A model generated the notes under the pieces. The model did not search any database, was not told the origin of the DNA, and worked only from the letters and a program-made list of their open reading frames with translations. A DNA stretch of 64,000 bases from Clostridia bacterium (lineage in GTDB: Bacteria > Bacillota > Clostridia > Oscillospirales > CAG-272), in assembly GCA_017420755.1 (NCBI GenBank), contig JAFQOG010000023.1:36186-100185 (forward strand). The letters run 5' to 3'. Made by a program: the position numbers and the translations under genes. Positions 26,696 through 37,638 of this stretch are shown here, one piece after another. The stretch's first letter is position 1, and each line of letters begins with the position of its first letter.

Positions 26696-26725
26696 TTTAA
26701 TAACTAATTATGCGTGAGGAAAAGT

Positions 26726-28204
26726 ATGTTTAAAAACGTAACACCTGAATCAGTTGGCATAAAATCAAAATATGTCAAGGAATTCATTTCAAAGCTTGAA
26801 AAAAGAAAAATACATATGCATAGTGTCATTTTGTGCCGTTCATACGATATTTTTGGCGAATTTTATTGGGCGCCATTTGACAAGGATTTTTTACATAGAA
26901 TGTACTCCCAAACAAAAAGCTATGTTTCCGTAGCTATTGGGCTTTTGCTTGATGAGGGAAAGCTATCACTTGACGATAAAATAGCGGATTATTTTCCTGA
27001 AAAAATAGACTCTTTCATTCCTGATTCGTTAAAAAACCAAACTGTTAAAAACATGCTAATGATGTCAACTGTTGGTTTTGGTCAATTCTGGTTTAGAAAT
27101 ACCGACAAGGATAGATGCCACATTTATTTCAATAGGCAATGCGAAACAAGATATCCTGGCACTATTTGGGAATACGATAGCCAAGGCTCACAGGTCCTTT
27201 GCTGTCTTGTTGAAAAGCTATCTGGTAAGACCTTATTTGACTATTTAACCGAAAAGGTTTTTTCACATTTAGGAACATTTAAAACCGCAACTATTTTAAA
27301 AACACCAACTGGTGAAAGCTGGGGCGACTCTGCCCTTCTTTGCACCTCAAGAGATATGCTTTCATTTGGCAGATTTGTTATGAACTATGGCGTTTGGAAC
27401 GGCAAGCGTATTTTAAGTGAGGAATATTTAAAAATAGCAACATCGAATCTAATCGATAATCAAGAAACCGCCTTTAAGGATGTACTTGGTCACGGCTACG
27501 GATACCAAATTTGGAGAACCGAGAAAAACGGATTTGCCTTTGTCGGAATGGGCGATCAGCTTACAATTTGCCTTCCTGATTATGACTTGATTTTTGTTTG
27601 TACCGCAGACAATCAAGGCTCCGGATTTTCCCGTGAAATTATTCTTTCTTATTTCTTTGACATCATTGTTGACAACCTTGAAAACGCACCACTTTCAGAG
27701 GATAAAGCTTCATATAATGATATGATAGAAGCAACAAGTAATCTTTCGCTATTTAGTTTAAAGGGACAAGAATTTTCACCTTGGCAAGAAAAAATTGATG
27801 GTGTAAAATATACTTTTACGCAAAATGAGCTTGGCTTAAAGGATTTAACGTTTAAGTTTGATTCAAATGGTGGAACTCTATACTACACCAACGAAAACGG
27901 TGAACTGGAATTGAAATTCAAATTAAATGCAAATTATTTTGATAAGTTCCCCGAGCTTGGGTATTCTGGTGATGTTGGTGGTGTTTCAACGACTGACGGC
28001 TCAAAATATGACTGTGCAACCTCAGGCGCTTGGCTTTGTGACAATAAAATAATGCTGTTTTCCCAAATAATAGATAGATATTTTGGAAATGTATCTATGT
28101 GCTTTGGCTTTAATAAGGACAAAATCACAGTTACCTTTTATAAAACTGCAGAGGACTTTTTGTTGAATTACAATGGTCAAGCATTCGGTGAGCGCTCATT
28201 TTAA
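26726..28204 (+). CDS. Beta-lactamase-family serine hydrolase
   Basis: 492 residues; ATG preferred over an in-frame GTG four codons upstream because GAGGA lies just before it. The first ~320 residues are a class C beta-lactamase / esterase-fold domain: S-x-x-K in MYSQTKSYVSV near 65, Y-x-S in WEYDSQGS, and H-x-G in GHGYGYQIW. LLDEGKLSLDDKIADYFPE is the family's typical segment. The ~150-residue C-terminal part is beta-rich and may be a lipocalin-like appended domain. No signal peptide, so probably a cytoplasmic esterase, amidase or peptidase and not a drug-resistance enzyme. Monocistronic with its own terminator. Confidence 0.87.
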   Translation: MFKNVTPESVGIKSKYVKEFISKLEKRKIHMHSVILCRSYDIFGEFYWAPFDKDFLHRMYSQTKSYVSVAIGLLLDEGKLSLDDKIADYFPEKIDSFIPDSLKNQTVKNMLMMSTVGFGQFWFRNTDKDRCHIYFNRQCETRYPGTIWEYDSQGSQVLCCLVEKLSGKTLFDYLTEKVFSHLGTFKTATILKTPTGESWGDSALLCTSRDMLSFGRFVMNYGVWNGKRILSEEYLKIATSNLIDNQETAFKDVLGHGYGYQIWRTEKNGFAFVGMGDQLTICLPDYDLIFVCTADNQGSGFSREIILSYFFDIIVDNLENAPLSEDKASYNDMIEATSNLSLFSLKGQEFSPWQEKIDGVKYTFTQNELGLKDLTFKFDSNGGTLYYTNENGELELKFKLNANYFDKFPELGYSGDVGGVSTTDGSKYDCATSGAWLCDNKIMLFSQIIDRYFGNVSMCFGFNKDKITVTFYKTAEDFLLNYNGQAFGERSF

Positions 28205-28222
28205 CACATTTTAAAATAAATT

Positions 28223-28252
28223 AGGATAGGCCTTTATGCCTATCCTTTTTTA
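28223..28252 (+). terminator. Terminator of serine hydrolase gene
   Basis: AGGATAGGC-ctttat-GCCTATCCTTTTTT. Confidence 0.92.
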
Positions 28253-28269: not shown

Positions 28270-28321
28270 AACAAAATATAAACAAAACATAAACCTTTAA
28301 CTAACAAGACATAACTATAAT
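28270..28321 (+). promoter_or_regulatory. Site A: 11-bp phased operator and promoter of cls
   Basis: Consecutive 11-bp units AACAAAATATA, AACAAAACATA, AACCTTTAACT and AACAAGACATA (starting 28270, 28281, 28292, 28303), then a perfect -10 TATAAT at 28316, 35 bp after the start of the second unit. No consensus -35 is present, so activator dependence is likely. Direct repeats with 11-bp period are the usual target of OmpR/PhoB-class regulators, and one such regulator gene lies at 34599. Confidence 0.8.
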
Positions 28322-28360
28322 ACTAATTATAATCGATAAATATGCTTTGGAGGCGAGGAT

Positions 28361-29926
28361 ATGAAAAGAAAATATCAAGTCAATACCGGCGACAAAACAA
28401 TTGAGCGAGAATATAACTACATTCCTGTACGATACATCGTTGCAGTTCTTATAACAATTTTTGAAATTGTTGCAATTATTGGAATTGTGGTTGCGTGCTG
28501 TTATTACATCCCTTACTTTTATATAGCAGCGTTTATAACTGAAATATTTTGCGTAATTAAGATTATAGCCTCAGACGACAACCCCGATTATAAGGTGCCG
28601 TGGCTTTTGTTCGTTCTTATCTTGCCTATTGCAGGATTTATGCTTTACTTTATCTTTTATTCAAGAAAGCTACAAAAGAAATATATACGCCGTCTGAATG
28701 AACTAAAAAAGTATAGATATGAAAAAGAGCAAGAAAAAATTCTTACAGAGCTTGACAAAAAGAATCTTCACGCATCATCACAAGCAAAAATGCTGTGTCA
28801 TATTGCAGAGGCAAGCGTGTTTGAAAACACAAAGGTGACCTACCACCCTCTTGGAGAAAGCATGTGGCAAGCAATGCTTTGCGACCTTGAAGCAGCCAAG
28901 AGCTTTATATTTATGGAATATTTCATTATTGAAGAAGGTGGATTTTGGAATTCTATATTAGATATTTTAAAAAGGAAGGCAAAAAACGGAGTTACTGTTC
29001 GTTTGCTCTACGATGATATTGGCTGTATGAGTACGCTTCCTGGAAGCTATCACAAGCAGCTTGCAAAAATGGGAATAGAAGCAACTCCATTCTCTCGCTT
29101 ACGTGGACAAGCAGACAGCGAATTCAACAATAGAAGTCACCGCAAAATTTGCGTAATCGATGGCAAGGTAGGATATACAGGTGGTGTCAATATCGCTGAC
29201 GAATATATAAATAAAGTAGAACGCTTTGGGCATTGGAAGGACACGGCTATACGTCTTGAGGGTGAGGCTGTATGGGAAATGACAAAAATGTTTCTTGTTG
29301 ATTACGGCATCAATGTAAAAAAGCTACCACCTGTTCCCGAAAACATCTATCCAACGGAAAACACAATACGCGCTGAGGGGTATGTAATTCCATTTGGTGA
29401 TGGTCCACGCCCCTTGTACGACCGCAGAGTTGGAAAGAGCGTTATTCAAAACATGTTAAATACTGCCACTCGATATATGTATATGACAACACCATATCTG
29501 ATTATAGACAGTGAACTTTGTCAAAGCATTGAAAATGCAGCTTTAAGGGGCGTTGATGTGCGAATCATCGTTCCACACATCCCGGATAAGAAGCTTGTTT
29601 TTGGTATAACAAGAAGCTTTTATCATCGTTTGATGAAGGCTGGTGTGAAAATTTACGAATATAAGCCTGGCTTTATTCACGCAAAAAGCTACGTTTGTGA
29701 TGACGAATATGCAATGATTGGCACAATAAATCTTGACTATCGCAGTCTTGTTCACCATTTTGAAAATGGTGTTTGGATGTATCGCTGTGATTCAATAATG
29801 GATATAAAAAAGGATATTGAAGAAACGATGGAAAAATCCATAGAGGTTAATCCAAAAATGTTAAAGACCGGTCTTTTTACACGCTTTGTTCGCTCAGTAG
29901 TAAGAATATTTGCACCAATGCTGTAA
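28361..29926 (+). CDS. cls: Cardiolipin synthase (phospholipase D family)
   Basis: 521 residues. Two or three N-terminal transmembrane segments (about 25-52, 55-75 and 80-105) are followed by two phospholipase D domains. The HKD motifs are HRKICVIDGKVGYTGG near 260 and HAKSYVCDDEYAMIGTIN near 438, both with His, Lys and Asp in register. Bacterial Cls joins two phosphatidylglycerols into cardiolipin at the membrane. GGAGG stands before the ATG. The promoter carries the 11-bp phased operator shared with the downstream transporter and two-component genes, so cardiolipin remodelling is probably one output of that regulatory system. Confidence 0.93.
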   Translation: MKRKYQVNTGDKTIEREYNYIPVRYIVAVLITIFEIVAIIGIVVACCYYIPYFYIAAFITEIFCVIKIIASDDNPDYKVPWLLFVLILPIAGFMLYFIFYSRKLQKKYIRRLNELKKYRYEKEQEKILTELDKKNLHASSQAKMLCHIAEASVFENTKVTYHPLGESMWQAMLCDLEAAKSFIFMEYFIIEEGGFWNSILDILKRKAKNGVTVRLLYDDIGCMSTLPGSYHKQLAKMGIEATPFSRLRGQADSEFNNRSHRKICVIDGKVGYTGGVNIADEYINKVERFGHWKDTAIRLEGEAVWEMTKMFLVDYGINVKKLPPVPENIYPTENTIRAEGYVIPFGDGPRPLYDRRVGKSVIQNMLNTATRYMYMTTPYLIIDSELCQSIENAALRGVDVRIIVPHIPDKKLVFGITRSFYHRLMKAGVKIYEYKPGFIHAKSYVCDDEYAMIGTINLDYRSLVHHFENGVWMYRCDSIMDIKKDIEETMEKSIEVNPKMLKTGLFTRFVRSVVRIFAPML

Positions 29927-29940
29927 AATTTATTTTTTAT

Positions 29941-29997
29941 AACATTTTGGAAACAATTCTTCAACAAAACGCAAAAAACGAGATAATAAAATATAAT
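29941..29997 (+). promoter_or_regulatory. Site B: 11-bp phased operator and promoter
   Basis: Units AACATTTTGGA, AACAATTCTTC and AACAAAACGCA at 29941, 29952 and 29963, exactly 11 bp apart. The -10 is TAAAAT at 29987, 35 bp after the second unit start (TATAAT at 29992 is an alternative). Same arrangement as sites A, C and D. Confidence 0.75.
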
Positions 29998-30028
29998 CAC
30001 AAAAGAAAAACGAGGAAATTAAAGGATT

Positions 30029-30409
30029 ATGGAAAATAACGTTTTTACCTATCAATATTCAGCATCAAAAAACAAAGAAATTGAAAGCATTAGAAAAAAG
30101 TACCTACCCAAGGAGGAAAACAAGCTTGAAACACTAAAGCGTCTTGACTCTCGTGTTCAAAGTGCAGGAATGCTTGAAGCGCTTTGTCTTGGCGTTGTGG
30201 GAATTCTCATTTTTGGAATTGGAATGCGCTTCTTTCTTAATGTGTTTGCCGGAGGAGCCATATTCGCTGCTCTATTTATGATAATAGGTACAATTTTGAT
30301 GTTGCCTGCTTATCCACTATATAGATGGATAGCGAAAAAAAGAAAGGCTGAGCTAACGCCAGAGATTCTTCGTCTCTCCGAAGAAATAATAAATTCTCAA
30401 AATTCTTAA
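30029..30409 (+). CDS. Small two-helix membrane protein (paralogue of the gene at 37225)
   Basis: 126 residues. A charged N-terminal half (FTYQYSASKNKEIESIRKKYLPKEENKL, about residues 6-45) is followed by two transmembrane helices (about 50-72 and 78-98) and a basic tail ending TPEILRLSEEIIN. The 137-residue protein at 37225 repeats the same plan: VFSYNYSAKEQAEIKKIREKY, RLRRLDASV, two helices, APEIIRLTDEL. A truncated third copy follows at 30484. Both ends are predicted cytoplasmic. Function unknown. Its own promoter has the phased operator, so it is part of the proposed envelope regulon. Confidence 0.8.
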   Translation: MENNVFTYQYSASKNKEIESIRKKYLPKEENKLETLKRLDSRVQSAGMLEALCLGVVGILIFGIGMRFFLNVFAGGAIFAALFMIIGTILMLPAYPLYRWIAKKRKAELTPEILRLSEEIINSQNS

Positions 30410-30414
30410 AGATT

Positions 30415-30466
30415 AACAAAACGCAAACAATTTTTAAAAAAATCAAAAATAAACGGCTGTTATAAT
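30415..30466 (+). promoter_or_regulatory. Site C: 11-bp phased operator and promoter
   Basis: Units AACAAAACGCA (30415) and AACAATTTTTA (30426), then TATAAT at 30461, 35 bp after the second unit start. It probably drives the transcript through the gene remnant at 30484, the 89-residue protein and both ABC transporter pairs. Confidence 0.78.
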
Positions 30467-30483
30467 CAAATCATCACAACTCT

Positions 30484-30627
30484 ATGATTATCGGCATTGT
30501 CATTGGAATTGTTGGAATGGCATTAGCAGCTATAAACTATCCAATTTACAAGGGTATTATTAATAGAAGAAAGAAAAAATATGGCGCTGAAATTTTATCC
30601 CTCAGCGAAAAAATAATAAATAATTAA
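30484..30627 (+). pseudogene. C-terminal remnant of a small two-helix membrane protein
   Basis: An open frame of 47 codons translates to a sequence matching only the second helix and tail of the paralogues at 30029 and 37225 (IGIVIGIVGMALAAINYPIY, then EILSLSEKIIN). The N-terminal YSA..IRKKY half and the first helix are missing. There is no ribosome binding site at the ATG, which lies only about 10 nt after the expected transcription start from site C. The simplest reading is a third paralogue whose 5' half was lost by deletion that left its promoter. It could still be translated as a 47-residue single-helix peptide. Confidence 0.7.
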
Positions 30628-30653
30628 ATTAAACATATAAGGAGATAACTACT

Positions 30654-30923
30654 ATGGGATTAAGAGCATTTTTCAAAAGAGCATTTGGTGATATGAAGGA
30701 AAGCACCAAGGCACAGCACGAGGTTGATAAGGCAAACTTTGCAGCAGCAAAGGCAGAATCAAAGGCACAATGGGAGGAAGCTAAGGCAACTGGCGACCCT
30801 AAGTGTCGCAAGGCTGTTATGCAAGCAAAGCGCGATAAGCAAATTGCAGAAGCTAACGAGCGCAAGGCGGCAGCAGAGGCTCGCATTGAGGCAGTAAAAA
30901 AGGAAGAAATCTCAGAAGAATAA
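30654..30923 (+). CDS. Small charged, Ala-rich helical protein
   Basis: 89 residues with AAGGAG 9 nt before the ATG. The start is amphipathic and basic (MGLRAFFKRAFGDMKES). The rest is one long Ala/Lys/Glu helix (residues ~18-85: KAQHEVDKANFAAAKAESK and KRDKQIAEANERKAAAEAR) with coiled-coil-like spacing, broken only at GDPKCRKAV. No membrane helix. It is not a family I recognise. As the first intact gene of the transcript that also encodes two ABC transporters, it may be a peripheral membrane or scaffold protein; this is inference. Codon use is like the neighbours. Confidence 0.8.
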   Translation: MGLRAFFKRAFGDMKESTKAQHEVDKANFAAAKAESKAQWEEAKATGDPKCRKAVMQAKRDKQIAEANERKAAAEARIEAVKKEEISEE

Positions 30924-30928
30924 GCGAA

Positions 30929-30951
30929 AAGCGAGCTATACTGGCTCGCTT
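30929..30951 (+). other. Intercistronic hairpin
   Basis: AAGCGAGC-tatactg-GCTCGCTT between the 89-residue protein gene and the first ABC gene. No T-run follows, so it is more likely an mRNA-stability or partial-attenuation element than a terminator. Confidence 0.55.
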
Positions 30952-30975
30952 ATATCGCACTATATAGGAGTAAAA

Positions 30976-31884
30976 ATGAACGCTATTGAAATTAGAAATC
31001 TTTCAAAAAGCTTTCGCGGAATGTTTGCGGTTGACCACCTAAATATGACTGTTCCGCAGGGAGCAATTTATGGCTTTATCGGTGAAAACGGTTCTGGAAA
31101 ATCAACCACTGAAAAGCTTATTTGTGGTCATCTTGTGCCAGACGGTGGCGAAATTAAGCTATTTGGCAGAGATTACACCGACCCGGGAGTTAGAGTGCGC
31201 GTAGGCGCTTTGATTGAAAATGCAGGATGCTTCCCCAGCTCAAGCATATACCAAAACCTAAAAATGCAATGTATAAACTTGGGCATTAAAAATGCAGATG
31301 AGGAAATTAATCGTGTGCTTGAGATTGTACGTATGGAGAACAACGCAAATATTAAATTTAAAAGCTGCTCTCTTGGTATGAAGCAACGTGTTGGCATCGC
31401 TATGGCATTACTCGGCGACCCGGCTCTATTGATTCTTGACGAGCCGATCAATGGTCTTGACACTGATGGTATGCGAATTATGCGTGAAATTCTTATTGAT
31501 ATCACACAAAAATACGGCTGCACAGTGCTTATCTCCTCGCACCTGCTTGGCGAGCTTGAAAAAATTGCAACCCATTATGGCATTATCCGTCAAGGAAAAA
31601 TGATAATGGAAATGAGTGCCGAAGAAATGGATTCAAGAGCGCAGGTGTTTACCTCTCTTAAAACTCAAGATATGGATGGTGCTTTGCGCTTGTTATCTAA
31701 AAAATATGAGGATGTAAGACAAGAGGACGGATACATACGCATTTACGACGTGCAAGACGTTGAAAGAATAGTTTCTTTTCTTATAGAGAATGGTCATGTA
31801 GTAAGTGAAATCAAGAAAAACAAGATTGGACTTGAGGAATACTACATTGAAATTATGTCAAAGCAAGGAGGTAAAAAACAATGA
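30976..31884 (+). CDS. ABC transporter ATP-binding protein, BcrA type (pair 1)
   Basis: 302 residues. Walker A GENGSGKST near 40, a signature segment CSLGMKQRVGIAMAL near 133 in place of LSGGQ as in bacitracin/lantibiotic exporters of the BcrA type, Walker B LLILDEPINGLD, and H-loop ISSHLLGE. The C-terminal ~85 residues are the regulatory extension usual in the BcrA group. It powers the ABC-2 permease of the next gene, with which it overlaps by 4 nt (ATGA). The likely role is export or detoxification of membrane-active peptides. A second near-copy lies at 32732. Confidence 0.93.
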   Translation: MNAIEIRNLSKSFRGMFAVDHLNMTVPQGAIYGFIGENGSGKSTTEKLICGHLVPDGGEIKLFGRDYTDPGVRVRVGALIENAGCFPSSSIYQNLKMQCINLGIKNADEEINRVLEIVRMENNANIKFKSCSLGMKQRVGIAMALLGDPALLILDEPINGLDTDGMRIMREILIDITQKYGCTVLISSHLLGELEKIATHYGIIRQGKMIMEMSAEEMDSRAQVFTSLKTQDMDGALRLLSKKYEDVRQEDGYIRIYDVQDVERIVSFLIENGHVVSEIKKNKIGLEEYYIEIMSKQGGKKQ

Positions 31885-32717
31885 CAAAGGAATTAAATTT
31901 TAAATCTCCAAGCTTCTTTGAAAGAATCAAAAGCATGCTGGGTGTGGACTTCTATCGTCTATTCCACACTCCCCTGTTTTACATTTTCCTTGTAATTTCG
32001 GCTATTATTCCTGCTATGGTTTCGTGCCTTACTATGATGCCGGACCAAAGTGGAAACACAATGGAGCCACTATATTCTAATGTATGGCAAATTATCGCTG
32101 CATCCGAGCCACTTTATGTTGTTAGATCCATTGCCGACTATGCAAACATGAATATGGTATTTATTTTTGGCGGTATAATGGTTTCCATTTTTATTGGACA
32201 CGACTACAAAAGCGGTTACGTTAAGCAGCTTTTCACAACTCACGCAAAGAAGCAAGACTATATGATTTCAAAGTCCCTTACTTGCGCCTTTGCTATGGCT
32301 TGTATGTGTTTGACATATTTAATCGGTGGAATTGCAGGTGGCGCCTTTGCTGGCTACGCTTGGGATATAAACGTTGGTTCTCTTATTATTGCAATTCTTG
32401 GAAAAATTATTATGTCTCTTGGATGGGCGAGCCTATATACATTTCTTAACATCATTTTCAGAAGATATTTTGGTGTATCCGTTGGTGCTTCATTCTTCTT
32501 TGGCACAGGAATTCTTATAATCGGTGTTGCCGCAATTGTTGAAAGCCTTTCACTTCCTGCAAGCTTTTTGAATGTTTTCCTTTATGGCTCATCTGTAAAT
32601 GCGTGTCTTACAAGCAATATTGGAACACTTATTGTTTGCATTTGGGTATCTTTTGCCTGGGCATTTATTTACAATGTTGCAGGAACATATATCCTAAACA
32701 AGAGCGATGTTTACTAA
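31881..32717 (+). CDS. ABC-2 type transporter permease (pair 1)
   Basis: 278 residues with six predicted transmembrane helices and the N-terminal cytoplasmic segment MLGVDFYRLFHTPLFYIFL typical of BcrB-like ABC-2 permeases. A long first extracellular loop (about residues 55-95) precedes GHDYKSGYVKQLFTTHAKK, the cytoplasmic coupling region. Partner of the ATPase encoded immediately upstream. Similar in length and layout to the permease at 33631, so the two ATPase-permease pairs arose by tandem duplication. Confidence 0.9.
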   Translation: MTKELNFKSPSFFERIKSMLGVDFYRLFHTPLFYIFLVISAIIPAMVSCLTMMPDQSGNTMEPLYSNVWQIIAASEPLYVVRSIADYANMNMVFIFGGIMVSIFIGHDYKSGYVKQLFTTHAKKQDYMISKSLTCAFAMACMCLTYLIGGIAGGAFAGYAWDINVGSLIIAILGKIIMSLGWASLYTFLNIIFRRYFGVSVGASFFFGTGILIIGVAAIVESLSLPASFLNVFLYGSSVNACLTSNIGTLIVCIWVSFAWAFIYNVAGTYILNKSDVY

Positions 32718-32731
32718 TTGGAGGTCGAAAA

Positions 32732-33631
32732 ATGAATGCTATTGAAATTAAAAATTTAACAAAAAGCTTCGGCCAAAAGCAAGCTCTTTGTGGGCTGAAT
32801 ATGACTGTTCCCCAAGGCGCGATTTACGGCTTTATCGGTGAAAACGGCTCTGGAAAATCCACAACCGAAAAAATCATTTGTGGTCTTATTCACGAAAATG
32901 GTGGAAGTGTTAAGCTTTACGGCAAACCACACACCGATTTGGATGTTCGTGCAAGCATGGGTGTGCTTATTGAAGCCCCAGGCTGCTTCCCTTCTCTTAG
33001 TGTTTGGAACAACATGATGATTCAAGCAGCCAATCTAAGAATCAAGGATGCAAAAAAAGAGGTAGTAAAGGTTTTAAAGGCTGTTCGAATGGAGGGTGCG
33101 GCAGGGAACAAATACAAAAACTGCTCCCTTGGTATGAAGCAACGCATTGGAATTGCCATGGCTTTGCTTGGTAATCCCAAATTGTTGGTTCTTGACGAGC
33201 CTATAAACGGATTGGATGCTGACGGAATGAGAATTATGCGTGAGATTTTGACAGACATAACAAAATCAGGCGCAACAGTTGTTATTTCCTCTCACGTTCT
33301 TGGCGAGCTTGAAAAAATTGCAACCCATTACGGCATTATTAAGGGTGGAAAAATGATAGTTGAAATGACCGCTGAGGAGCTTGAGGCAAGCTGTCGTACA
33401 TACATTGCGCTCAAGGCGAGGGATATGAATGCTGCAAGACTTCTCCTTTCTTCTAAGTTCTCTCGCGTGGTTGAGGATAAGGCAGGCTATTTAAGAGTTT
33501 ACGACGAGGTAAAGAACGAAGAAATAGTAAAGCAACTTTATGACAATGGAATTGTTGTAACAGAAATCAAGAACGACAAAATTGGTCTTGAGGAATATTA
33601 TATCGACTTGATGAAGGAGGCAAGAAAATAA
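32732..33631 (+). CDS. ABC transporter ATP-binding protein, BcrA type (pair 2)
   Basis: 299 residues; the start at MNAIEIKNLTKSFGQK is chosen because GGAGG lies 7 nt upstream, not the longer frame that overlaps the previous gene. Walker A GENGSGKST, signature CSLGMKQRIGIAMAL, Walker B LLVLDEPINGLD and H-loop ISSHVLGE repeat those of the first ATPase almost word for word, as does the C-terminal tail IGLEEYYIDLM. The stop overlaps the following permease start by 1 nt. Confidence 0.93.
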   Translation: MNAIEIKNLTKSFGQKQALCGLNMTVPQGAIYGFIGENGSGKSTTEKIICGLIHENGGSVKLYGKPHTDLDVRASMGVLIEAPGCFPSLSVWNNMMIQAANLRIKDAKKEVVKVLKAVRMEGAAGNKYKNCSLGMKQRIGIAMALLGNPKLLVLDEPINGLDADGMRIMREILTDITKSGATVVISSHVLGELEKIATHYGIIKGGKMIVEMTAEELEASCRTYIALKARDMNAARLLLSSKFSRVVEDKAGYLRVYDEVKNEEIVKQLYDNGIVVTEIKNDKIGLEEYYIDLMKEARK

Positions 33632-34464
33632 TGTCAAGCACATTCGAAAAAAACACCTTTGGCAAACGCTTTGGAAGTATGCTTAAGGTAGATTTTAAGA
33701 GATTATTTCTCTCACGCACCTTTTATATAATTCTTGCGATTTGCCTTGTTGCTCCTGTTTTAATTTTGGTGATGACCACGATGATGGACGGAACTGTTAA
33801 TGTCAACCCTCAAACAGGTGTAGAAATGGTTATTGAGGGATTTGACAACACCTGGCAAATCATCGGCTCGGTAAGCACAGGCGCACAGCCAAGCACAGAG
33901 AGCGGTGCCGCCGGAATGGCTATGGACATGAGCATCACAAGCATGTGCAACATCAATATGCTCTATTTTGCAATTTCCACCCTCGTTTGCATTTTTGTAG
34001 CAAATGATTTTAGAAGTGGATATTCCAAAAATCTCTTTACAGTTCGTGCAAAAAAGACCGATTATGTGGCATCTAAAACAGTTGTATTAATTTTTGGTGC
34101 AGCTATGATGGTTTTCGCCTTCTTTGTTGGTTCACTAATTGGTGGTGCGATATCTGGTCTTTCATTTAATATGGTTGGATTTAATGTAGTAAACCTTATT
34201 ATGTGTATTCTTTCAAAAATGGTTTTGGTTAGCATATTTGTGCCGATTTATCTTATTATGAGTGTGATTGCAAAGCAAAGGCTTTGGATGTCTATTCTGC
34301 TTTCTATGGTAGTTGGAATGTTCTTATTTATGATAATTCCTATGGTTTCACCTCTAAATGCTACAATTGAACACGTGCTTATTTGTGCGGTTGGTGGCTT
34401 CGGCTTTTCCATAGGTCTTGGAGCTGTTAGCAATCTTATTTTGAAAAAAACAAGTCTTGTATAA
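33631..34464 (+). CDS. ABC-2 type transporter permease (pair 2)
   Basis: 277 residues and six predicted transmembrane helices. It starts with a cytoplasmic MLKVDFKRLFLSRTFYIIL segment parallel to that of pair 1, then a longer extracellular loop (about residues 50-115, with TNVNPQTGVEM-like polar sequence) and the coupling segment NDFRSGYSKNLFTVRAKK. The differing external loops of the two permeases suggest different ligands. Last gene before a strong terminator, ahead of the two-component system. Confidence 0.9.
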   Translation: MSSTFEKNTFGKRFGSMLKVDFKRLFLSRTFYIILAICLVAPVLILVMTTMMDGTVNVNPQTGVEMVIEGFDNTWQIIGSVSTGAQPSTESGAAGMAMDMSITSMCNINMLYFAISTLVCIFVANDFRSGYSKNLFTVRAKKTDYVASKTVVLIFGAAMMVFAFFVGSLIGGAISGLSFNMVGFNVVNLIMCILSKMVLVSIFVPIYLIMSVIAKQRLWMSILLSMVVGMFLFMIIPMVSPLNATIEHVLICAVGGFGFSIGLGAVSNLILKKTSLV

Positions 34465-34468
34465 AGCA

Positions 34469-34505
34469 AAGGGCAACGCAAAAACAGCGTTGCCCTTCTA
34501 TTTTA
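34469..34505 (+). terminator. Terminator of ABC transporter operon
   Basis: AAGGGCAACGC-aaaaaca-GCGTTGCCCTT followed by CTATTTTAT. Confidence 0.85.
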
Positions 34506-34525
34506 TAGAAAAAATTTCAAAAAAG

Positions 34526-34566
34526 GTAAAAACGCAAACAAAACTTTAACATTTATATGATATAAT
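34526..34566 (+). promoter_or_regulatory. Site D: 11-bp phased operator and promoter of the two-component operon
   Basis: Units GTAAAAACGCA, AACAAAACTTT and AACATTTATAT at 34526, 34537 and 34548, then TATAAT at 34561, 35 bp after the first unit start. Same geometry as sites A-C. It implies autoregulation by the response regulator encoded just downstream. Confidence 0.78.
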
Positions 34567-34598: not shown

Positions 34599-35270
34599 AT
34601 GTTTAAAATTTTAGTTGTAGAGGATGACAGAGATTTAAATCGCTCTGTTTGCTCATTTTTAAACAATAGTGGATATGAAACAACAGGCTGTCTTGATGCT
34701 GAGAGCGCTTATGACGAGATGTATAAAACAACATTTGACCTTATAGTATCTGATATAATGATGCCAAAAGTTGATGGCTTTGAATTTGCCAAAGCTGTGC
34801 GCTCATTAAACAGTGATATTCCTATTTTGTTTATGACTGCACGCGATGATTTTGCATCAAAGCAAAGAGGATTTCGTATCGGTATTGACGATTATATGAT
34901 AAAGCCCATTGACCTTGATGAGCTATTTCTTAGAATCGGTGCTCTTCTTCGTCGCTCAAAAATTGCTTCAAGCCGTCGCTTAGAGATTGGAAGCTTCACT
35001 ATGGATGCTGACGAGCGCTCAGCAACCTTAAACGGTGAGGAAATATCCTTTACAGCAAGAGAATTTGACCTTCTCTACAAGCTTTTATCATATCCAAAGA
35101 AAACATTCACTCGCACACAGCTTATGGATGAATTTTGGGACATAGATTCTCAAACTGGCACAAGAACAGTTGACGTATATATGACAAAGCTTCGTGCAAA
35201 GCTCTCAAAATGTGACTCATTTGAAATTCAAACCGTTCATGGTCTTGGCTACAAGGCGGTGATAAAATGA
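34599..35270 (+). CDS. OmpR/PhoB-family response regulator
   Basis: 223 residues. The receiver domain (1-118) has the acidic pair VEDDRD near 8-10, the phospho-acceptor Asp in IVSDIMMPKVDG near 52, Thr in FMTARDD and Lys in YMIKPID. The winged-helix DNA-binding domain (about 128-222) has the OmpR-type recognition region TRTVDVYMTKLRAKL and wing VHGLGYKAV. It overlaps the histidine kinase gene by 4 nt. Members bind tandem direct repeats with 10-11 bp spacing, which matches sites A-D found at four promoters here, including its own. Confidence 0.95.
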   Translation: MFKILVVEDDRDLNRSVCSFLNNSGYETTGCLDAESAYDEMYKTTFDLIVSDIMMPKVDGFEFAKAVRSLNSDIPILFMTARDDFASKQRGFRIGIDDYMIKPIDLDELFLRIGALLRRSKIASSRRLEIGSFTMDADERSATLNGEEISFTAREFDLLYKLLSYPKKTFTRTQLMDEFWDIDSQTGTRTVDVYMTKLRAKLSKCDSFEIQTVHGLGYKAVIK

Positions 35271-36364
35271 AAAGCGAGAAAAAATATAGAAATATTGTTA
35301 GTACAATCAGCAATTTCTTTATTTTCTTTTTGCTTGCTGCCTTTGTAACAACATGTTGTATTACACTATTTATCTCCACGTTGCAGGATTCCATTGGCAG
35401 AGAGTTTACACAAAATGAAATAACTCTTGCTGCTAAAATCACAATGGTAAACGTTGTGTTAATCAGTATTTTAATGGCAACAATTGACTTTCTTCGTCGT
35501 AAAATTACTGTAGAGCGTCCTGTAAAAAGAATTACCAGCGCAACTGATAAAATGATTGCTGGTGATTTTAGTGTTCGCATCGAGCCAATTTCAAAATTCG
35601 CAACAGATGATAGCTTTAATGAAATTATTGATTGCATTAATAAAATGGCTGAGGAGCTATCCGGGGTTGAGACCCTGCGCTCGGATTTTATTGCAAATGT
35701 CTCCCACGAAATGAAGACACCGCTTGCTGTGATGCAAAACTATGGAACTCTTTTACAGTCTCCCGATTTAACCGAGGAAAAGCGTGTGGAATATGCAAAG
35801 GCAATAACCGATGCCTCTCGCCGTCTTTCCGATATGATGACAAATGTTCTAAAGCTAAATCGCTTAGAAAACCAACAAATATACCCACACCCAGCGACCT
35901 TTAATCTTGGAGAGCAGCTTTGTGAAAGCCTTCTCCAATATGAAAGCGTATGGGAGAAAAAAAGCATTGATATAGATACCGATATTGAAGAAAACGTTCT
36001 TGTTTCTGCCGATTCAGAGCTTTTATCGCTCGTTTGGAGCAATCTTTTTTCAAACGCCTTTAAATTCACTGACGAGGGTGGAAGGGTATCTCTTTCGCTC
36101 ACAACTGACGAGAAATATGCTATTGTTAAAATCGCTGACACCGGATGCGGAATGAATGCTGAGGTTGGCGCGCATATGTTCGAAAAATTCTATCAAGGCG
36201 ACTCCTCTCGTTCAACACAGGGAAATGGTCTTGGTCTTGCTCTTGTTAAGCGAGTAGTTGATATTATGCAATGCGAAATCAGTGTTGAAAGTGAGGTTGG
36301 CGTTGGAACAACCTTTACAGTCAAAATCAGAAGGAGCGAAAATGAATTGGAAAAAAATAGGTAA
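35267..36364 (+). CDS. Membrane sensor histidine kinase
   Basis: 365 residues. Transmembrane helices at about 13-37 and 57-74 enclose only ~20 external residues, so it lacks a real extracellular sensor, like intramembrane-sensing kinases. A HAMP-like linker (PVKRITSATDKMIAGDFSVRI) is followed by the H-box SHEMKTPLAVMQNYG near 147, N-box SNLFSNAFKF, G1 DTGCGM and G2 GNGLGLALVKRV. The signal probably comes through a partner membrane protein; candidates are the ABC transporters or the multi-helix protein encoded next. It overlaps both neighbouring genes. Confidence 0.95.
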   Translation: MKSEKKYRNIVSTISNFFIFFLLAAFVTTCCITLFISTLQDSIGREFTQNEITLAAKITMVNVVLISILMATIDFLRRKITVERPVKRITSATDKMIAGDFSVRIEPISKFATDDSFNEIIDCINKMAEELSGVETLRSDFIANVSHEMKTPLAVMQNYGTLLQSPDLTEEKRVEYAKAITDASRRLSDMMTNVLKLNRLENQQIYPHPATFNLGEQLCESLLQYESVWEKKSIDIDTDIEENVLVSADSELLSLVWSNLFSNAFKFTDEGGRVSLSLTTDEKYAIVKIADTGCGMNAEVGAHMFEKFYQGDSSRSTQGNGLGLALVKRVVDIMQCEISVESEVGVGTTFTVKIRRSENELEKNR

Positions 36365-37235
36365 GGCGCTCTTATATCCGCACATAGCGATTATGATTGC
36401 TTTAGTTCCAATAGCAACGGCTTTTCTTGTCTTATCAATGGTATTTCTCGGGACAGAATCTTGGGTTTCGATTATCTCATATGTTCTTTCCGCATACACC
36501 CTAACCACTTGGTGCTTCAAAATCCCTTATTTGATTAAGTTTTTCAAAACCTTCAAGGAAGAAAATAAGCTTGTTGTAAGATGGAGGAGCGACGCACGTC
36601 TACGTGTAAGCGTAATGCTTTACGGCTCCCTTGCTTGGAACAGCTTATATGGTATTTTCCAATTGTTTTTGGGCTTTTATCACAACACCTTTTGGTTCTA
36701 CTCCTTTGGTGTATACTACATTTGCTTGGCAGTAATGCGTTTCTTTTTATTATTGCATACAAGAAAGCACGCTCCAGGTGTTAAAATGCAGAGCGAATTA
36801 CAAAAATACCGTGCTTGTGGATGGATATTATTATTAATGAACTTATCACTGGCGCTTATTGTGTTCTTTATGATTTATTGGAATAGAACCTTTAATCACC
36901 ATATGATTACAACTATTGCAATGGCTGCATATACCTTCTCTGCATTTACAGTAGCTATTGTAAATGTCGTGAAATATAGAAAATACAACAGCCCTGTCTT
37001 TTCATCCACCAAGGCGATTAGCTTAGCGGCGGCATTTGTTTCAATGCTAACGCTTGAATCCACAATGCTTACAACCTTTAGCGACGGAACAATGACAGTC
37101 GGCACACAGAAATTGATGCTCGGCTTAACGGGTGGCGTTATTATACTTTTCATCGTAGCAACGGCTATTTATATGATTGTTCATGGAACAAAAAAACTTA
37201 ACACATTAAAATCAGAGGTTAATAATGGAAAATAA
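36342..37235 (+). CDS. Multi-pass membrane protein of unknown function
   Basis: 297 residues; the start at MNWKKIGKALLYPHIAIM is chosen for AAGGAG just upstream and overlaps the kinase gene by 23 nt. About seven or eight transmembrane helices with short loops; the charged cytoplasmic segment KFFKTFKEENKLVVRWRSDARLR lies after helix 2. No catalytic or transport signature that I recognise. Its tight translational coupling to the histidine kinase suggests an accessory sensor or modulator. It also overlaps the following small membrane protein gene. Confidence 0.8.
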   Translation: MNWKKIGKALLYPHIAIMIALVPIATAFLVLSMVFLGTESWVSIISYVLSAYTLTTWCFKIPYLIKFFKTFKEENKLVVRWRSDARLRVSVMLYGSLAWNSLYGIFQLFLGFYHNTFWFYSFGVYYICLAVMRFFLLLHTRKHAPGVKMQSELQKYRACGWILLLMNLSLALIVFFMIYWNRTFNHHMITTIAMAAYTFSAFTVAIVNVVKYRKYNSPVFSSTKAISLAAAFVSMLTLESTMLTTFSDGTMTVGTQKLMLGLTGGVIILFIVATAIYMIVHGTKKLNTLKSEVNNGK

Positions 37236-37638
37236 TAATCAAGAGCAAAACGTATTCTCTTATAATTATTCTGCAAAGGAGCAAGCAGAGATAAAGAAAA
37301 TTCGTGAAAAATATACGCCTCCAACAGATGTTGAAGACAAAATGGAGCGCTTGCGAAGGTTAGATGCAAGTGTAACTCAAACAGCACAGATTGTGGCACT
37401 TATATTAGGTATAATAGGCACTCTTATTCTCGGATTTGGAATGAGTCTTATTCTAACTAATCTTTCAAGCATGATTGGTCTTAGCCATAATGTTGCAATG
37501 GCAGTTGGCATTGTCATTGGTATTTTGGGTGGTGGTGCGGCAAGTCTTGCCTTCCCTATTTACAATGTAATCGTAAAGGAAAGACGCAAAAAGCTTGCTC
37601 CAGAAATTATTCGTCTAACCGACGAATTGATGAAATAA
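37225..37638 (+). CDS. Small two-helix membrane protein (paralogue of the gene at 30029)
   Basis: 137 residues. The charged head has VFSYNYSAKEQAEIKKIREKY and RLRRLDASVT; transmembrane helices lie at about 60-83 and 93-115; the basic tail is KERRKKLAPEIIRLTDELMK. It overlaps the preceding gene by 11 nt and ends the two-component operon. The same architecture in the gene at 30029 and the fragment at 30484 shows a small local family whose members all lie behind phased-operator promoters. Function unknown. Confidence 0.82.
   Translation: MENNNQEQNVFSYNYSAKEQAEIKKIREKYTPPTDVEDKMERLRRLDASVTQTAQIVALILGIIGTLILGFGMSLILTNLSSMIGLSHNVAMAVGIVIGILGGGAASLAFPIYNVIVKERRKKLAPEIIRLTDELMK

Follow-up and report, generated by a model that had tools for sequence, protein, structure and literature searches.

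Four promoters in a window of 64,000 nucleotides from a Clostridia bacterium (assembly GCA_017420755.1, contig JAFQOG010000023.1, forward strand, positions 36,186 to 100,185; coordinates below are those of the window) share an operator made of AAC-headed units that repeat every 11 bp, forming a comb at a fixed distance from the -10 box. They precede a cardiolipin synthase gene (cls), a gene for a small membrane protein (sm1), an operon containing two ATP-binding cassette (ABC) exporter pairs, and the operon of a two-component system whose response regulator starts at 34599. Computational comparison with related genomes establishes that the operator exists, that it keeps a fixed register, that it is conserved and that it is linked to one clade of regulators. 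By its domains, a receiver and a Trans_reg_C winged helix, and by the 11-bp direct-repeat candidate operator near its promoter, the regulator is assigned to the OmpR/PhoB class. We consider it very probable, from the sequences compared, that the four promoters form a compact, mostly local regulon of this one two-component system, acting through the comb. A sequence-only reading of the window had proposed such a local regulon, autoregulated by the 34599 regulator, and the proposal is well supported by the conservation of the operator, by its tracking of the regulator clade and not of paralogues, and by the genome-wide ranking given below.

The operator and its register

Each operator unit reads AACAWWWYNNN, and the AAC triplets start 46, 35, 24 and 13 bp upstream of the -10 hexamer. 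AAC units every 11 bp had been described at all four promoters, and direct reading confirms them except at 34526, where the supposed unit reads GTAAAAACGCA instead of AAC. A -10 box lying exactly 35 bp after the start of one unit was found again at the cls (28281/28316), sm1 (29952/29987) and third target (30426/30461) promoters, but not at the regulator promoter. There the true units lie 24 and 13 bp upstream of the -10 box, in the same 11-bp register as the targets. The reported absence of a consensus -35 was borne out: at spacings of 15–19 the best match to TTGACA is two positions in six at every one of the window promoters. The sm1 promoter has a perfect TATAAT at 29992 beside the TAAAAT at 29987; the latter is preferred as the -10 box because the orthologous promoters of loci L049 and L051 place it there.

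Within the window alone, the count of AAC runs is weak evidence for the comb. At period 11 the + strand has two runs of at least three AAC and the - strand has none, but periods 9 and 12 likewise yield two runs, of three AAC, on the - strand; no run is unique except the one of four AAC at 28270.

Strong evidence is provided by a test of the register, by scores obtained with the window left out, and by genome-wide ranking. The register test considered TAnnnT hexamers with at least five matches to TATAAT, counting those where at least three of the four comb positions were AAC, in 1,434,387 bases of sequence from 92 sources, the window plus 91 loci of the regulator, with regulator promoters left out. 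Period 11 with positions 13, 24, 35 and 46 gave 59 sites, compared with 0–4 for each of 54 other combinations of offset and period (periods 9–13). Columns on which there was no selection are fixed too. In the 59-site set, AAC is followed by A in 97% of cases in units one and two; the next three positions are A or T in 100% of cases in unit one and at least 98% in unit two, and the position after them is C or T in 100% and 98%, respectively. The third unit is looser.

A matrix constructed from the 57 sites of other loci scores the window targets at 56.9 bits (30415 promoter), 44.1 bits (sm1) and 37.8 bits (cls), while the next match in the window scores 1.8 bits and the maximum over 200 Markov-1 windows is 13.9 bits. 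When a model of all 59 sites, based on sequence only, was run against the genome from which the window comes, with 150 of 2309 first-look candidates scored, the same three promoters came top: the 30415 promoter, which is absent from the training set, with an expectation value (E) of 1.2e-9, followed by sm1 (E 1.1e-7) and cls (E 3.6e-4), which are both included in it. No other promoter had E below 0.03, and the next match had E 0.04. In this genome, which is about 87% complete, the regulon thus appears to consist of the four promoters in the window.

Over a near-identical set of 92 sources (1,433,619 bases), 93 sites score at least 14 bits, whereas the reversed model and five column-shuffled models find none. 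A phase-rotated control gave 58–84 matches at the lowest threshold and 15–58 at the highest, and was not used, since rotation leaves most units mutually in phase. In the window's genome the long initial pattern had no match, and a search with the short consensus AACAAAACGCAAA, allowing one mismatch, was uninformative (18 matches against 15 for the backward control).

Conservation of the regulator promoter

Regulator orthologues of at least 71% identity occur in 14 of the 58 other genomes of the family that were first searched (15 genes, two of them in G016). A second set of loci consists of the best 80 of 587 confirmed stretches from a species-level genome collection; judged by length, it shares at least four contigs with the first set, and the counts are not additive. 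All 80 of these loci come from metagenome-assembled genomes (MAGs), and 55 of them from ruminant gut samples (sheep, goat, deer, yak and buffalo). In some genomes (G385, G016, G226 and G369) the regulator is present two or three times over.

The element is present at its fixed spacing in all 16 regulator promoters of the first set, including that of the window, although the first unit is weaker in L060 and L063. In the second set it is present in 77 of the 79 usable promoters, and 75 of the 79 match at least 16 positions of a 26-base template; the element lies at the edge of the extract in L113 and L120 and was not seen in L125 and L129, and one further locus was too short. AAC is found 24 bp upstream of the -10 box in 74 of 75 regulator promoters, and likewise 13 bp upstream in 74 of 75. 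Across 76 sequences, the pairwise identity of the promoter core is 90.6%; fourfold sites of the regulator gene reach 35.6%, and the 12 bp immediately 5' of the core 36.1%.

Association of the sites with the regulator clade

In a test of 35 genomes, a site at E 1e-4 was found in 13 of 14 with a regulator orthologue and in none of 21 without one; the 21 were chosen from 44 lacking an orthologue, and several of the 13 had contributed training sites. Among 395 genomes of the family, sites occur in 119 of the 136 that have the orthologue and in 28 of the 259 that do not (Fisher P 7e-54, uncorrected for relatedness). Eleven of these 28 exceptions have a regulator that is 55–61% identical, just under the cut-off, and two have a split regulator. 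The regulator promoters of the divergent, 55–61% clade themselves have the comb, at 31 bits or more in seven of 11 and at 11–18 bits in three, with none in the remaining one. Seven of the 11 divergent loci (L286–L296) belong to the window's own genus, and other sites in such genomes precede a 377-residue protein (L273, L277).

Paralogues behave differently from this clade: all 15 examined at 44–49% identity, and one at 34%, lack the comb at 8 bits, and 15 paralogue promoters of the first genome set reach at most 18 of the 26 template matches. Cardiolipin synthase loci were checked in 27 of the 39 genomes without a near orthologue, the enzymes being 36–63% identical, and none of the 27 has a site (best 10.0 bits, E 0.15). 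One assembly labelled Anaeroplasmataceae (L142) has both a regulator of 76% identity and a target site, which points to either transfer or misbinning.

Genes preceded by the operator

By permissive protein comparison, 91 of the 93 sites precede genes of five kinds: 52 stand before small membrane proteins, 19 before a small repeat protein, 10 before proteins like the small charged protein p89 of the window, 9 before cardiolipin synthase and 1 before the first ABC ATPase. Of the remaining two, one is a tandem site and one lies before an epimerase-like gene. Certain genes carry a pair of sites, and in L078 one such pair is a single comb read one unit apart.

Looked at from the side of the genes, 104 of 128 candidate members of these families at operon heads have a site, a count that is partly circular in that 59 of its sites defined the model; 21 of the 24 without a site are ABC ATPases below 100 bits. 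With these weak ATPases set aside the proportion is 104 of 107, and the real misses are sm1 of L090, the first ATPase (A1) of L127 and the repeat protein of L128. The sequence-only reading had named, as an outcome that would speak against it, loss of the repeats in relatives that keep the genes and the two-component system; what is found before the orthologous genes is retention. Where targets are inverted relative to the regulator (L090, L099, L102, L110, L135), the site remains ahead of the gene. The sites retrieved from other contigs, in G030, G039, G048 and G051, also precede the named families or a p89-like protein. In G039 (contig C49, L202) such a protein, of 139 residues, lies about 1 kb from a paralogue of mem, the membrane protein gene of the regulator operon.

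The repeat proteins (L056, L203, L204) consist of 11-residue amphipathic repeats resembling GYKKIENGVVE; the two sequences examined show 25 and 22 identities, respectively, when compared with themselves at lag 11. Their helical amphipathicity is a hint that they may attach to membranes, and the repeats may be comparable to those of synuclein or apolipoproteins.

Proposed mechanism

On the basis of these observations we propose that the phosphorylated regulator binds the units head to tail on one face of the helix. From the distances between the units and the -10 box, the units would lie at approximately -58 to -22 from the likely start, and would cover the position of the missing -35. The bound regulator would then substitute for the -35 and bring polymerase to the -10 box. 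Binding and activation by the regulator, its inducing signal and a protective effect on the envelope are what we infer from these patterns.

The two kinds of promoter probably differ in their basal activity. The extended -10 motif (TGN) precedes the -10 box in 72 of 75 regulator promoters and in only 3 of 59 targets, which suggests that the targets are activator-dependent, while the regulator operon is leaky and autoregulated. The targets, having up to four units (46, 35, 24 and 13) and no extended -10, would be off without the regulator; the regulator promoter, where only the units at 24 and 13 are conserved and the -10 is extended, would provide a basal level and respond to its own product.

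The kinase has almost no outer domain and probably senses a disturbance of the membrane or envelope from within the membrane, perhaps by way of mem and sm3, the last two genes of its operon. Intramembrane sensing, which is known for a class of histidine kinases, is suggested by the spacing of its membrane segments, approximately 21 residues apart. The output would consist of cardiolipin synthesis, small membrane proteins and small soluble proteins that perhaps attach to membranes, joined by ABC exporters in some genomes.

Alternative explanations

Several observations weigh against the proposed regulon. The target model matches the regulator promoter weakly (13.4 bits, sixth in the genome), so that the two classes of site are related, not identical. 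A matrix built from the 16 regulator promoters only finds, after the regulator promoter itself, cls at 20.0 bits and 30418 at 10.3 bits in the window, but misses sm1, which is below its threshold of 6 bits; in shuffles under this matrix, scores of at least 10 bits turn up about 0.25 times per window, with a maximum of 18. A possible second and ordinary promoter for cls, AAGACA-16-TATAAT, is present at 28306–28333 (10 of 12 positions matching, TATAAT at 28328); the pattern scan that gave it returned fewer promoter-like sites (15) than expected from shuffles (20.6). A few of the operator sites stand before genes outside the named families: the epimerase-like gene in L128, and genes for proteins of 458 residues (L257), 377 residues (L273, L277) and 191 residues (L279). 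Sites at 1e-4 are absent from 17 of the 136 regulator-bearing genomes, in a search whose stricter filters drop weak matches, and one paralogue locus, L043, has a partial match (13.2 bits, E 0.016). For 15 of the 28 exceptional genomes no regulator orthologue was found on follow-up; 10 of these 15 assemblies are less than 90% complete and five are not. Finally, the site sets were partly trained on loci that were later counted.

It is possible to read the same units as repressor sites, with the regulator released under stress and the proximal units, between the usual positions of -35 and -10, blocking polymerase. The unit 13 bp before the -10 box does sit in the spacer, with conservation in targets and regulator promoters alike, and the extended -10 of the regulator promoter could fire unaided. 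At the targets, however, the rarity of the extended -10 and, in the window, the lack of a -35 leave little to repress, and the sites reach upstream to about -58. We therefore regard repression as improbable.

A different DNA-binding protein might use the units, the two-component system being a neighbour and itself a target. The 15 site-bearing genomes with no orthologue found would fit this, although most of them are the incomplete assemblies noted above. It is a very improbable explanation, given that the sites follow this regulator clade, including its divergent branch, and not the 44–49% paralogues, and that the unit spacing is typical of the DNA-binding class of the regulator. That the units are no specific operator but phased A-tracts, or a DNA-bending or polymerase-binding element of the UP type, can hardly be credited: the units are indeed A-rich, phased by one helical turn and upstream of the -10 box, but the C of AAC is present at 93, 100 and 85% in the three units (partly by selection), the unselected A, W and Y positions after AAC are fixed as well, the element precedes one set of families, column-shuffled models match nothing, and none of the 21 genomes lacking an orthologue has the element at 1e-4.

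Organisation of the locus in the window

The promoters and genes of the locus are listed in Table 1. The first gene after the 30461 promoter is only a remnant, yet the promoter is retained, ahead of p89 and the exporters. In relatives, mem lies 3' of the kinase in 14 of 15 loci, the exception being L054. When the small proteins were compared with Pfam and NCBIfam profiles, no family scored above its cut-off. The exporters had been described as BcrA-type; this is not supported, since the first ATPase, the only one scanned, matches TIGR03740, used here as the marker of lantibiotic-protection (LanF/BcrA-type) transporters, at 203.1 bits against a cut-off of 309.75.

Table 1. Features of the locus, in window coordinates.
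Feature	Position	Strand	Details
Serine hydrolase, beta-lactamase fold	26714-28204		weak similarity to 3-succinylated cholic acid synthase (179.9 bits; cut-off 800)
Terminator-like hairpin upstream of cls promoter	28223..28246	+	pattern match
cls promoter	28270..28321	+	AAC at 28270, 28281, 28292, 28303; -10 TATAAT at 28316
cls, cardiolipin synthase, 521 residues	28361..29926	+	TIGR04265, 343.2 bits, cut-off 290
sm1 promoter	29941..29992	+	AAC at 29941, 29952, 29963; -10 TAAAAT at 29987
sm1, 126 residues, two predicted membrane segments	30029..30409	+	no family above cut-off
Third target promoter (smU remnant, p89, two ABC pairs)	30415..30466	+	AAC at 30415, 30426, then degenerate units; -10 TATAAT at 30461
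smU, C-terminal remnant, 47 residues	30484..30627	+	about 121 residues in relatives
p89, small charged protein	30654..30923	+	no predicted membrane segment; no family
A1, ABC ATPase	30976..31884	+	PF00005; TIGR03740 under cut-off
M1, probable ABC-2 type permease	31881..32717	+	hydrophobic segments; PF12730 23.4 bits, under cut-off of 27
A2, second ABC ATPase	32732..33631	+	likeness to A1 read from sequence
M2, probable second permease	33631..34464	+	hydrophobic segments; no NCBIfam family above cut-off
Terminator-like hairpin between M2 and regulator promoter	34469..34497	+	pattern match
Regulator promoter	34529..34566	+	AAAACGC; AACA units at 34537, 34548; extended -10 TGA-TATAAT, hexamer at 34561
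Response regulator, receiver and winged helix	34599..35270	+	PF00072 88.6 bits, PF00486 (Trans_reg_C) 76.4 bits, both above cut-off
Histidine kinase	35267..36364	+	PF00512 (HisKA), PF02518; membrane segments 18-36 and 58-76, separated by a loop of about 21 residues
mem, multi-span membrane protein of regulator operon	36342..37235	+	no known family
sm3, small membrane protein of sm family	37225..37638	+	final gene of regulator operon

Function and comparison with known systems

A role of the regulon in envelope stress is plausible. New in this system are the operator, the fixed register that it keeps and a set of effector families that are uncharacterised. The circuit gains a defined operator, regulator and target set, and its regulator is present in 136 of the 395 family genomes sampled. 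The 80 relatives of the second set are all MAGs, and little of the circuit is therefore likely to have been studied in culture. The sites place several families of small proteins with no known function in one context, beside cardiolipin synthesis, and the exact register makes the binding and the promoter logic directly testable in a reporter host. More speculatively, this may be an undescribed membrane-repair system of gut Clostridia, in which two-span small membrane anchors and membrane-coating small soluble proteins, as new families, would with cardiolipin do work of the PspA/LiaH type while being unrelated to PspA and LiaH; we offer this as a tentative idea that is possible rather than probable. 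Among the ten window proteins scanned there was no match to PspA-family, GerE or LiaF. The titles and abstract openings of the literature matches listed, from coverage that leaves out most subscription journals, contain no account of this regulon.

The B. subtilis PhoP box is TTAACA-like, with four repeats, and replaces the -35. As described in PMC4415409, E. coli PhoB and B. subtilis PhoP bind 11-bp tandem direct repeats with seven well conserved and four less conserved positions, the regulators being arranged head to tail; the operator described here is likewise built of 11-bp tandem direct repeats. A phosphate regulon was considered and rejected: the targets belong to other families, and PhoU domains are found in the genome only in frames of 563 and 613 residues on other contigs (pst was not part of the search).

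The operator of WalR/VicR, as given in PMC4168254, is TGTWAH-N5-TGTWAH, a pair of hexamers spaced at 11 bp. Read on the opposite strand it becomes DTWACA-N5-DTWACA, which is similar to the TTAACA-like units found here. However, it has two half sites, in contrast to a comb of four units at a fixed place, and the kinase described here has no PAS match.

LiaR is a regulator of the NarL type. The LiaRS-LiaIH system of B. subtilis combines a membrane protein, LiaI, with a membrane-attaching partner, LiaH, and is described in the corresponding part of PMC8144471 as induced by membrane damage and limited in its regulon. The pairing of membrane proteins with candidate membrane-attaching ones, and the limited regulon, are points of likeness. 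An EdsR-, Lia- or Wal-like identity of the regulator was rejected on the domain matches.

The closest parallel is with EdsRS-ClsT of Bacillus anthracis, which upon envelope damage raises its own operon and one other, with ABC-2 exporter genes and a cardiolipin synthase, in the account given by the sections of PMC7157781 on these operons. Autoregulation, a cardiolipin synthase and an ABC-2 exporter are combined here as well, as indicated by the operator sites only. By the same sections, EdsR is GerE-type and EdsS has HisKA_3, whereas the present system has Trans_reg_C and HisKA; no small membrane or repeat proteins are listed for the two EdsRS operons, and the main text makes no use of the term 'direct repeat' (PMC7157781). 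By analogy, then, the circuit would appear to work like EdsRS, the nearest described analogue found, but it is not a member of the EdsRS family.

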